DNA from: Paramecium tetraurelia
Lineage: Eukaryota > Ciliophora > Oligohymenophorea > Peniculida > Parameciidae
Length of the DNA stretch: 64,000 nucleotides
Reading direction: 5' to 3'
Assembly (NCBI RefSeq): GCF_000165425.1
Contig: NW_001798954.1
Span: forward strand, 230,350 to 294,349
The notes beneath the pieces were generated by a model. The model ran no database searches, was not told where the DNA came from, and worked only from the letters and a program-made list of their open reading frames with translations. Position numbers and translations under genes: made by a program. This document shows positions 1 through 57,631 of the stretch, in pieces. The stretch's first letter is position 1. Each line of letters starts with the position of its first letter.

Positions 1-3000
1 ATAAGTTTCAGAGTGATATTATAAAGACACTGCAAGCAATTCAGTAAGCTAAGTTCTCCATCAATTCCCAGTCATAAGTAAATGAAGAGACCAAACCCAA
101 AGGCTAAATTAGGAAACCCATTCTGTAGATTAATAACTTGATGCCCTAAGAAGTTCCTAAGGAATCGACAAAAAGTACCAAGAGGTATTCGGAATTGGGG
201 AAAATTGTGAAAACAGAACAAACTCTAACGTCAGCTACAAGCAAAAGAATAATCAAGGCTTCTGCCTCTAAACTCCTCAATTCTCAATATCAACACATTG
301 AAGAGGATCCCATATTCTAAATCCAAGTTGAAAATTACCACATTAACAAGATTGTTAGAAAAGGATGCTTTAAAATCTAAAAACCAGTGACCTTGTCTAC
401 ATGCACTTGTATTCCTATTCAATATCATAGAAAGATACAAAACACAGACTTCTGCATAAGAAGATTTACCATTACTTACCTTCCAAGACTTCGAGTAAGA
501 TCACCAAGATTCAATTCTAGAACTACCCTCCCCTGTCAAACCAGCTACTGAATCAGACCATAAGATTTCCGGCAAGGATCACAGCATTACACATTCCTAA
601 TCATCTCAAGGGAAAATTGATAAGTTGAACAATCTCAGTAATCCCTATAAACTGAAGAACCTGATTAGTTCTAGATTCCAGTAAATCCTAGACATAGCCT
701 AATTGAGTGCCTCCTCAACACCCAGGAATGCTGATCTAGGTAAATCGATTAGAAGATAAAAAACAATATCAATCAAAAAAGAACACAAGGAATTTCAATT
801 ATAACCACAATAACTCTCAATTCCCTTGTTACAACAAATACCTTCGTAAAAAGATCCAGATCCATAGACTTCAGAAAGAAGAAGGAGTGGGATGGTCGTG
901 AGTTCACCTGATGCTGCTTCTCAAATTAGTCAAGCCATCCAAAAATCTAGTCTTGTTGAGAGTATCCCCACAAAATCGTAGATTATAATTGCAATACCAG
1001 TCTAATAACAGCAACAATAGAACTAATAGCAAACACAACAGCAGAATCCTAAACGACCTCAAAGAAGGAATATCTTGGCTTTAAGGACTGCCACTACCTT
1101 ATTTATGGAATAATCCAATACTTACATCCCAAAGTTTTAATTTTCATTGTGTTATCACAGTCGAACTATATAGTGGTCATGTTTTCTATAAATAGCATCA
1201 TCAGATAACATTCTTATAGCTTTCTAGGATACAACAAATAACAAAATAGTTTATAGGGCTCAATTGTAGAATTTATAGATTGATAATATCAAAAATTGGG
1301 CGCAAATAATTGAAGTCTTTATTAAGGAGTACCAATCATAAGCTTCTCAATGCTTGCCCTATTTGCGTTATAATGAAATAATGAGCAATAGGAATGGTGA
1401 TAACTACAATTTTATTATGTTTCCCAAGTATTAGTTCGAACTAACCAAAAATGAAATAGAATAAATGGGTATTATGAAGGATTTGTTTAGATGGATGTAT
1501 ACAACTTATTTATATGAATAAATCAACATCACTGGGATCAGATTGAAGTTGTATTCAGTCGAAAAAGACAAAACTCTGAATGCATACAGAGAATTAATCA
1601 ATGTGGTCAATCTTTATAGAAGAATGATCATCTAATCGACCCTGTGTGATGAGAAGGAGAAATTCCACTTGCTAATTCTAAGTTATGGAGGTATCACTTA
1701 ATGTTAACTATTATAATAGAGTGTATTAAGAATAACATCATTCTTTTGAATAGGATACTCAATTTTAAGATAAACAAACAAAAGGATTAGTAATATATGA
1801 TTCACAAGCAGTTGGTGAGTCTTAGAAACCTAAGTTTGACAAATGATGAAGACAACATATTTTTCATAATTAAAGTGAGCATTATATTTTAGAAAGAGAA
1901 GTACTTATAAGTTATAATTAATTAGCATCTTGTACTATAAGAAGAATGACTATCACACCAAGTACTAGGTGGATGTATTGTTCGAGGCAATCAACAGTCC
2001 AGTAAAGATTAAACCTTTGAGATTGTAATTTGATGCCATAGAAAAGATCTTAGAAAAGAGATATCACAATAATTTAAAGCAGATAATAAATTAAATATTT
2101 TTCTCATAAAGGAAATGCTGGCACATGTTCTATGAATTCATAGATCAAAAGTTGATGATCAATGAATAGAAGTAACTTTAAGTTAAGATGAATATATTTT
2201 CATTGCATGATGCTTAGAAAATGGAGGCTTGTGGGATGAAATTAGGGTTTCTCATAGATTTGCAGACTAAAGTGAAGCCCTTTGCGATTACTGAAATAGA
2301 AAGATACATCTATGATGATACCTAAAAGAAGTTAGACTATCAATCCAAATCATAGACTATCCACAATAGAGAGCATATGTTCGATAAACACTTTGCTCAA
2401 ATATTCGGTGAAGACATTACGAATAATGAATAACAGCATTTTCATCAAACCACCTTGATTGATTTAGTGAAAAGGTACTAACCAAACATCAATGCAGAAG
2501 CTAAACAAGAGATCATTACAAAAAAGGTTGGTCCCATCGTAATTTATTAAGAAAATCCATTTACTGATGTGCATATTGATGATTTGGAAAAATTGGAGTC
2601 TTAATTTTTTAGCAAGTAAAATCTAAAGCTAGACAGAATCTAAAAGTATAGAATCCAATTGAAACATCTTTCCATCCAAATATCCATGGCTCAAAAATAG
2701 ATAATATTGATTTACCATTATAATTAAAGATTGCAAAGGTTTCGGATTAGTCCTTTTGATGAAGAGGATAACTTAATATCCAATATTGTATAACTTATTC
2801 AAAATGGCCCTACTTGTTGGATCGTCTAAATGCTATATAAGAAAATAAGTCAGAGAAGTTTAAAGCAATCATTCATTAGCTCCTAATTATCAGATGGGTT
2901 AGAGTTACTGAAATATAAGAAATCAAAAAGTTAATTGGCTGAGATTCCTTCTTATAATGTGCTGCATTATTATATCTTAAACAATTACATGGTACTATTA

Positions 3001-54281: not shown

Positions 54282-55623
54282 ATGCAAGCAACAAGTGACC
54301 AAGTATATAAAAAAAAAATTTACTCATAGCCACCTTTTGTGTCCTTAGAAAACTATGACAATATAGATTCAATCAGAAGCAAGTTCCCTCCCTTAGCAAA
54401 TATCAATATTGATCACAATTTTAATAATTTAAAGGACTGCAGATTCTTTATTATAAGAACCCAAGGAGAAGATAATGTTCATCGAGCCATGAAATATGGT
54501 ATTTGGACTAGGTAATGTATAAATTTACAAAAGCTCCTCTCGCAAAAACGAAAGATTAGACGAGGCATTCAAGAATAAATAGGAAGATGTTTATTTATTC
54601 TTTACAGAAATAAATAGTATGTGTTTTAGTGGGATGGCTAAATTAACATCTGAATTTAATGCAAAAGCCCATTTTAAATATTGGTTAATTGAGAATAAAT
54701 GGTTCGGGACATTTCAGATTCAATGGGTATTAATTAATGTTATTCGTCTCAGCTTTATGTCAAAGATATACCATTTAAACTATTTGATGAAATTAAATAA
54801 ATCTAAAAACTAGAAGGCAGTGAAGAAACTTTAAAATCTGTCTATGATCTCATAGATTGCACTGAACTGACAGTAGATAATGGCATTAAAATGACAAAAA
54901 TCTTCCAAGCAGAAAAAACTAATAAAAGTTTATTCGAAGAATTTCCTCAATTAGATAAATTGGAAGTATTTGCAATTTAATAATTTAAGTTTGAAAGCAG
55001 ATAAGAGAGAACAAATAATATACGATTTGAGAAAAAGTTTTAGGAATTGTCGTAAGTCTTTGAAACTTTACCATTCTCTTTTTCAGTTGCCTCATATGAA
55101 AGGAAAAAAACAAACAGAAAAGCTTAAGGCCCTTATTACTAGTCTCAATACGGTCAATAATATTATTATTAATAACCTTATCAATAATATTATTAGTAGC
55201 CATTTGTTGGTACTAAATATTATCTATAAATTAGGGTATTAATTCTAATAAACTCCCTAATATTGGTAATTTAATAATGGATTTTATTAAAATCAATATT
55301 AATAGAACCAATACACCAATAACAATAGTAACAAATAAGGGTTCACAAAGCCCTAATAATCATATGAGAAATATCAACATTAATAAAATAATTATTCTAA
55401 CTAATAATAGTAATCAAATACGATCTCCCAATAAACTCAATAAAACACAAATTAAGAAGGTAATTAGGATGTTTAGAGTGTTCCTTTGGAATAAAGATTT
55501 TAAATAAATAGTTAATAATTGCAAAAAAGAGGAAAATTTGATAAAATTAGAAACAAGAACAATAAAGACAATGTGTAATATGTAGAAAAAAATTCAACAG
55601 AAGCTCATGTATAAAAATATTGA
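54282..55623 (+). CDS. YTH-domain RNA-binding protein with Q/Y/N-rich tail
   Basis: About 422 residues with introns at 54512-54533 (22 nt), 54727-54752 (26) and 55210-55234 (25). A further 24-nt GT...AG stretch at 54966-54989 keeps the frame and may or may not be spliced. The YTH domain reads CRFFIIRTQGEDNVHRAMKY, then GIWTSS, then EDVYLFFTEINSMCFSGMAK, then FKYWLIENKWFGTFQIQW and YVKDIPFKLFDEI. The aromatic-cage tryptophans are present. YTH proteins read N6-methyladenosine in RNA. The last 150 residues are Tyr/Gln/Asn-rich (YYQQPYQQYYQQP), prion-like as in animal YTHDF proteins. Confidence 0.9.
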
Positions 55624-55885: not shown

Positions 55886-55975
55886 TAGAAATTTCTGAAC
55901 CCCCTTAAAATCAGGGAATCATGAATGGAAGAGTTGAAGTTATGCTTTAAATAATTTATATTAATATTTATTATA

Positions 55976-57631
55976 ATGAGAGAAATCATTTCTTTGCATA
56001 TTGGTCAAGCTGGTCTTTAAATAGGAAATTCCCTTTGGGAGTTGTTCTGTTTAGAACATAGCATACAACCTGATGGGACTGTTCCAACGGATCGAATATT
56101 AGAAGGTCTAAATTCCAATGTTGATTCGCTCTTTTCATTATCATAATATGGGAGATACGTTCCAAGAGCTATATTCTTTGATGAGGATCCAACAACGATA
56201 AATGCCATAAAAAATGGACCAAGCAGAGGATTATTTAATCGTTCCTATATACATTAATGCTAAAAGGAATCTGGAGGATGTTGGGCAAGAAGCTTTGGAA
56301 CAATTATGAATTAGGAAGGTGAAGAAAAAATAGCTGATAAAATAAGAAAACAAGTTGAGAGTTGTGATGGCCTTTAAGGAATTATGCTTTACCATTCAGT
56401 CGGAGGAGGATTCGGTGGAGGTTTTACATCTAAAATTTTGGATCTGCTTTCAAGTGACTTAGAAAAGGTGACCAAGGCAACTGTGTCTGTTCTATCCTCT
56501 AATCATTCTTTACAATCCTCTTTAATAGAACCATATAACTCATTATTGACCATCAAATACCTCAAGGAAAAAGCTGATATGTCCATAATGTTAGAGAATT
56601 AAGCTTTATTTAAGGTGGCCAACCAATAATTAGATATAGATAATCCAAATTTTTCAACAATTAACAGAATGATAGCCTAATTAATATCATCAGTTACCTA
56701 ATCCTCTAGGTTTAATGGATCAAAATTTGTTGATTTAATTGAAATGAGAATGAATGTTGTCCCAGAACCTGATTTCTAATTTCTTCATGCATCATATGCT
56801 CCTTTCATTAATATTGATAAACAAAATACCGAGTTAACCAACTTGCAATAGATTACAAACTCATTATTCGATTAAAGAAGTTCATTCATTAATTATAATC
56901 ACAAGACTGTCAAATATATGGCTGCCAATTTGTTTTTCAGGGGAGATTGTCCTTGGGGTGAAGTTAAAAGTGTAGTAGAATCTTTAAAGCAATCTCCTAA
57001 TATATAATTTGCAGAATTTGCAGTTCCTACATTTCAAATTGCCATTAGTGATAAGGCACCTATTCCATTCCCAAATAGTGAATAAGGTAGATCAAACAAG
57101 GCTGTTTGTATGATTGCCAATTCTTCTGCTATTGGAATTCCCTTATTTAGAATTAGAAGAAATGCTTCGACGCTATATTCTAAAAGAAGTCATGTACATT
57201 GGTTAGTTGGAGAAGGAAGAGAAGAAGGAGAAATTTAAGAAGCACTTGACACAGTTAAGTCATTTATAATAAATTATAGATAAGTTAAGTAAGAAAATCC
57301 TGATAAGGATTATTGTACCAGAGTTCAACACGGAACAGATTATATTAGGTAATTTGTTTACACTTGTGATTGTTTGGATGTTGAAGGCTATATCAAAAGT
57401 GGTATAGAAAAAGGTGAGGATATGGAGGGTAAATACTTGGGAGTTTGTGTTTAATGTGCAAGAAAGTGCCATGTTGGACACAACCTCAAAGCTAAAGGAA
57501 TTGTAAACGAGTTCTTTTGTGATTGCGGATTAGAAAATTGTAAAGTCAAATGTCAATGTCAGAAAGAGGAAGCATAAGAAGAAGAATAAGAATAATAATA
57601 GGAATAATAATAGGAATTATAATAAGTATGA
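55976..57631 (+). CDS. Divergent alpha-tubulin fused to a C-terminal UBR-type zinc finger
   Basis: One intronless frame of 551 residues. Residues 1-440 are tubulin: MREIISLHIGQAGLQIGN, WELFCLEHSIQPDG, YVPRAIFFDEDP, GLQGIMLYHS, EPYNSLL, LFFRGD and WLVGEGREEGE. This is an alpha-type pattern, including a glutamate at about residue 256 in the place of the catalytic alpha-tubulin Glu. The nucleotide-loop signature at residue 143 is GGGFGGG rather than GGGTGSG. Where a normal acidic tail would begin, residues 447-530 form a UBR box instead: CTRVQHG, YTCDC, GVCVQCARKCHVGH, FFCDCG. UBR boxes bind N-degron termini. A Glu/Gln tail ends the protein. It may be a microtubule-associated degradation adaptor, but that is inference. 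Confidence 0.9.

Follow-up and report, generated by a model that had tools for sequence, protein, structure and literature searches.

An open reading frame at the right-hand end of a Paramecium tetraurelia contig raises the question of whether one gene can join a tubulin to a UBR box and, if so, what the product would do. The window, which is the whole stretch of 64,000 nucleotides that was analysed, forms the right-hand end of contig C1, and none of three telomere-like hexamers was found in its last 300 bases. On the plus strand of the window, the frame runs from 55976 to 57631 and encodes 551 amino acids under genetic code table 6, with 30 TAA/TAG codons read as Gln and a TGA stop at 57629-57631. 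These coordinates, the frame and the length were exactly as given by the first-pass annotation. A second in-frame ATG lies upstream at 55925; homology favours the protein starting with MREII at 55976. The frame consists of an alpha-like tubulin body (residues 1-437, 55976..57286), a linker of 9 residues (438-446, 27 nt, 57287..57313), a zinc module resembling a UBR box of the UBR4 type (residues 447-528, 57314..57559) and a Glu/Gln tail (residues 529-551, 57560..57628) with 8 Glu within its final 22 residues. The usual acidic tail had been called lost, which holds directly behind the tubulin body, where there is no tail, but not for the whole protein, since the Glu/Gln tail sits after the zinc module. 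Directly upstream of the fusion, the start of a YTH domain (PF04146, E 5.6e-6) was observed on the plus strand at 54282-54650.

Such a frame could be an artefact in which two neighbouring genes are read as one, or in which an intron or a stop was missed at the junction. The intron consensus of Paramecium is GTA..TAG. Within the frame, 120 GT..AG stretches of 18-36 nt were present, and only two of them (34 and 31 nt) had both GTA and TAG; both would shift the frame. Two weak candidates touch the junction and speak for an artefact. Splicing of 57254-57279 (26 nt, GTT..TAG) would truncate the protein to 433 residues; however, this stretch begins with GTT and codes for sequence that can be aligned with alpha-tubulin. 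Splicing of 57289-57321 (33 nt, GTA..CAG) would keep the frame; however, it ends in CAG and would delete C447, a cysteine present in all three of the boxes compared below. In-frame Met codons occur at residue 379 and earlier in the body and next at residue 483 inside the module. The absence of any start codon from the end of the body through the 27-nt linker to the module does not fit a separate second gene. Codon usage over residues 447-528, scored against the codon preferences of 7 tubulin paralogues, was best in frame 0 (0.11 bits/codon) and negative in the other five frames, a score to be read with caution because values above 0 also came from the body, in one reverse frame, and from the tail, in two. 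Judged from the intron candidates, the Met positions and codon usage, a two-gene read-through or a junction intron is very improbable, and it is nearly certain that the fusion architecture exists in the genome.

The body belongs to the tubulin superfamily. It matched Pfam Tubulin with E 2.3e-51 (175.2 bits, cut-off 33) and Tubulin_C with E 7.7e-21 (75 bits, cut-off 26.6). When the fusion protein was searched against the PDB, the best match was an alpha-tubulin (E 9e-107) aligned over residues 1-443, and the best 60 of 171 matches were all named alpha-tubulins. The closest proteins in the genome were L002 (43% identity) and L003 (42%), compared to 37-38% for canonical alpha-tubulin. The window protein formed a clade with L002 and L003 in a 17-row tree (support 100/100). 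The branching order within this clade was unsettled (80/34), and the clade was sister to the alpha group with moderate support (80/88). The rows were 15 of the 30 loci from the genome protein search, the window protein and L056, a tubulin gene from outside the genome that is described below. Split, duplicate and partial loci, L010 and L019 among them, were omitted, L001 is the window gene itself, and the window protein and L002 were trimmed to 440 residues. The tree is to be read with regard to the long branches of L016 and L018 and to the unlike letter composition of L056. A divergent clade of three members at 100/100 indicates a tubulin lineage and not one decaying copy. Neither L002 nor L003 had a UBR box in Pfam. 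L002 (C221, positions 928-2799, minus strand) is an alpha-like tubulin extended at its C-terminus by a Gln-, Lys- and Glu-rich stretch of about 190 residues, and begins 148 bases downstream of a canonical alpha-tubulin match. A separate and very divergent tubulin group, L017 with L021-L025 (100/100), starts with GGAG instead of GQxG.

The nucleotide loop of the body reads GGGFGGG (residues 143-149, 56402..56422) in place of GGGTGSG, which we take to be the phosphate-loop signature of tubulins, as the first-pass annotation had reported. The Phe is not peculiar to the fusion. At alpha position 145, which is residue 146 of the window protein, it was found in the window protein, L002 and L003 and also in the divergent row L018; its presence throughout the three-member clade makes it a trait of that clade, independent of the fusion. 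At the alpha positions the window protein carries T145F, S147G, N101G, E71D and Y224F. Like L002 and L003 it has Phe at positions 145 and 224 and Asp at 71, and all three have either Gly or Ser at 101. In the T7 loop, the window protein retains Asp251 and Glu254; at the latter position L002 and L003 carry Asp. The designations alpha and beta-like follow general usage for tubulins, as do the functions ascribed to residues 71, 101, 145, 147, 224, 251 and 254.

Profile evidence bore out the in-frame fusion of the tubulin to a UBR-like box and also placed the box more exactly. Against the curated Pfam family zf-UBR (PF02207) the module stayed below the cut-off of 25.2 bits, scoring 24.5 bits (E 2.8e-5) when excised and 20.2 bits within the whole protein. 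Searched alone against the PDB, it matched FBXO11 (2.9e-4) and UBR4 (1.3e-3). A profile was then built from three boxes, the module and the two UBR boxes of an astacin-type protease of the same genome, so that its score reflects the astacin boxes too and not the module alone. It matched the UBR box of UBR4 (PDB 8j9q) at 6.8e-9 (2.8e-8 for the single stretch) and two chains named UBR-type domain-containing protein at about 4e-8; full-length UBR4 chains reached only about 1e-4, and weaker matches were BIG (0.002), FBXO11 (0.0038) and UBR5 (6.2). Membership of the UBR-box family, as first proposed, was missed at the curated cut-off, but homology to proven UBR boxes was seen with the module alone and with the three-box profile, whose ranking makes UBR4-type the better label for the module.

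The first cysteine of the module had been placed at residue 447 and is indeed C447. Eleven Cys/His residues are common to all three boxes (C447, C464, C466, C491, C494, C498, H499, H502, C515, C517 and C526), and the first ten of these also fall under Cys/His of UBR4 in the profile alignment. The putative zinc ligands follow the order of a UBR box, for which 4 plus 7 ligands are described in UBR4 in part of PMC10687169. The first knuckle of the module is CxC instead of CxxC, with 24 residues between it and the next conserved Cys. Contacts of UBR4 with its ligand are made by F1671, F1713 and D1715, according to the same part of PMC10687169. By hand count on the alignments, Y456, F514 and D516 of the module stand at these positions; the corresponding residues are Arg, Tyr and Asp in the second astacin box and Lys, Ser and His in the first. 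The reader positions of UBR4 therefore appear to be kept or conservatively replaced in the module. Six Pfam families matched the fusion at E up to 1, and no RING, HECT, F-box or UBR4 E3 domain was among them.

Relatives of both parts were sought in the 69-Mb assembly of 231 contigs; in the copy searches the genome was read exon by exon and only the best candidates were scored. A protein search detected no further copy of the fusion; one of its 40 matches was the gene itself. Nor did a DNA search yield one: its 44 matches comprised the gene, one short match to the tubulin L003 and 42 matches to the tail and 3' flank, which we took for low complexity. The only other genome match of the module at E up to 1 was C170:376491-376724 (5.2e-9, 39% identity), the second UBR box of a gene in which two such boxes follow an astacin domain. 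This gene, L031 (C170, about 376490-377720, minus strand), encodes in one frame an astacin-type metalloprotease followed by the two boxes (Pfam Astacin 1e-29, zf-UBR 2.5e-12), and the boxes, when excised, passed the zf-UBR cut-off of 25.2 with 27.4 and 31.6 bits. A query with a UBR4-type box at E up to 10 gave three genome matches, two in the astacin gene and one in the fusion.

A six-frame scan of the genome with zf-UBR at E up to 1 gave 15 matches; as a control, matches were obtained in 1 of 14 genomes, with none above the cut-off. Ten of the 15 looked UBR1-like by eye and lie on seven contigs (C45, C81, C3, C204, C40, C21 and C57). The three on C206, C17 and C101 were set aside because their translations looked by eye like B-boxes. 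The remaining two were the astacin gene and the window, where the module was the weakest match of all (18.3 bits, E 0.157). A UBR4 E3 module (PF13764, 1.1e-22) was observed at C177:468165-469649 on the minus strand. No UBR box was detected on C177 by the zf-UBR scan or by the search with the UBR4-type box; as both were read exon by exon, a box interrupted by introns might have escaped them there.

Searches of viral contigs and of a collection of genome contigs gave no further fusion. In the viral contigs, the whole fusion protein yielded three pattern stretches with none confirmed, the UBR alignment 40 stretches with no relatives, and an alpha-tubulin query one stretch with no relatives. In the genome contigs, the fusion query led from 13 stretches to three loci, two of which are alpha-tubulins and the third of which covers query residues 1-34 only. 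The alpha-tubulin genes L056 and L057 lie on contigs binned as one Verrucomicrobiaceae MAG and are probably eukaryotic contamination.

No description of a fusion between tubulin and a UBR box was found among the best-ranked matches in the open-licence literature, which fits the earlier statement that none was known. Ciliates are already known to have divergent tubulins, and UBR boxes are known from a variety of proteins; their union in one protein appears new as far as the open-licence literature, covered mostly through best-ranked matches, allows. Tubulin is not named in the part of PMC4506424 that lists the partner domains of UBR boxes, a list that ends with 'etc.'. The fusion resembles the alpha-like tubulins (ALTs) of Tetrahymena, and alpha-tubulin itself, in its tubulin body, its MRE start and its place as a divergent isotype beside canonical ciliate alpha genes. 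ALTs, which we liken to it by description only, lack the motifs at which tails are usually polyglutamylated and polyglycylated, according to part of a review (PMC9294176). In contrast to them, the fusion has an added zinc module and the Phe in its phosphate loop.

On the side of the module, the nearest relative found is the second box of the astacin-type protease, although there the boxes are borne by a metalloprotease. The likeness to the UBR4 box extends to the ten aligned Cys/His and to the Phe and Asp of the reader; unlike that box, the module has a CxC knuckle and a long loop before the next Cys, is joined to tubulin and comes with no ligase module. A UBR box coupled with microtubule association is also seen in the N-recognin UBR4/p600, whose microtubule-binding domain lies in its C-terminal part, as stated in a passage of PMC4058081, but UBR4/p600 is a giant ligase that binds microtubules and is itself no tubulin. 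FtsZ-like proteins with a Tubulin_2 domain likewise combine the tubulin superfamily with extra domains, whereas they are prokaryotic and belong to another Pfam domain, and UBR boxes are not mentioned in the excerpts describing them.

Our preferred reading, held tentatively and at a little less than even confidence, is that the gene encodes a noncanonical alpha-like tubulin isotype whose tail may have been replaced by a UBR4-type peptide-binding module, and which would act as a recruiter or adaptor and not as an E3 ligase. This is suggested by the single frame, the 9-residue linker and tubulin homology up to the end of the body, together with the 100/100 clade, the Cys/His set, the reader residues and the kept Asp251 and Glu254. 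The changes T145F, S147G, N101G, E71D and Y224F may spoil nucleotide binding, and if the altered pocket barred assembly the protein would be a soluble scaffold of tubulin fold whose UBR-like module binds a protein partner. This is rather unlikely, although Phe 145, Phe 224 and Asp 71 recur in L002 and L003, and L002 has an unusual C-terminal extension of its own. Both tubulin domains score well above their Pfam cut-offs and the T7 acidic pair is retained. Moreover, part of PMC3382179 describes beta-like tubulins of Tetrahymena that are divergent and altered at their GTP sites and that still label microtubules as GFP fusions, although the authors doubted that they co-polymerise with canonical beta-tubulin. 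Since these proteins still label microtubules, a microtubule isotype is favoured over a soluble adaptor, but not strongly.

The CxC knuckle, the 24-residue gap, the Pfam scores below the cut-off and the value of about 1e-4 against full-length UBR4 count against the isotype reading, as does the statement in a passage of PMC4506424 that not all UBR boxes bind N-degrons. The module could instead be a zinc-stabilised tail that reads no N-terminus and is tolerated because the isotype is dispensable. The shortened knuckle with its long loop, the single copy found in the genome and the occurrence of UBR boxes beside many unrelated domains (part of PMC4506424) would agree with such an inert tail. We nevertheless consider it more doubtful still than a soluble scaffold, as the common Cys/His and the Phe and Asp reader positions persist, while in the first astacin box the places of F1713 and D1715 are taken by Ser and His.

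If the isotype reading is correct, the module would share its source with the UBR boxes of the astacin-type protease. The body would pair with beta-tubulin and join or cap a subset of microtubules. Tubulin tails lie on the outer microtubule surface, so the module would be placed there too, and would recruit partners by way of either a free N-terminus or a short peptide. The fusion protein would thus be an adaptor borne by microtubules, with no role as a ligase. The fusion might also tie the recognition of N-degrons to microtubules or cilia, as first proposed.

Tubulin tails are the main site where microtubules are marked for partners. One class of ciliate microtubules might consist of a tubulin that itself reads N-termini, a lattice with UBR4-type pockets in place of tails that chooses cargo or clients according to their N-terminal residues. 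We consider this quite improbable; if true, the tubulin code would be written as a protein domain rather than as modification of a tail. A tubulin that naturally bears a folded domain for peptide binding at the position of the tail would be a direct test of whether the lattice can tolerate and use such a module. The presence in one genome of UBR4-type boxes on two proteins without a Pfam ligase domain also bears on the roles that these boxes may have outside the N-degron pathway.
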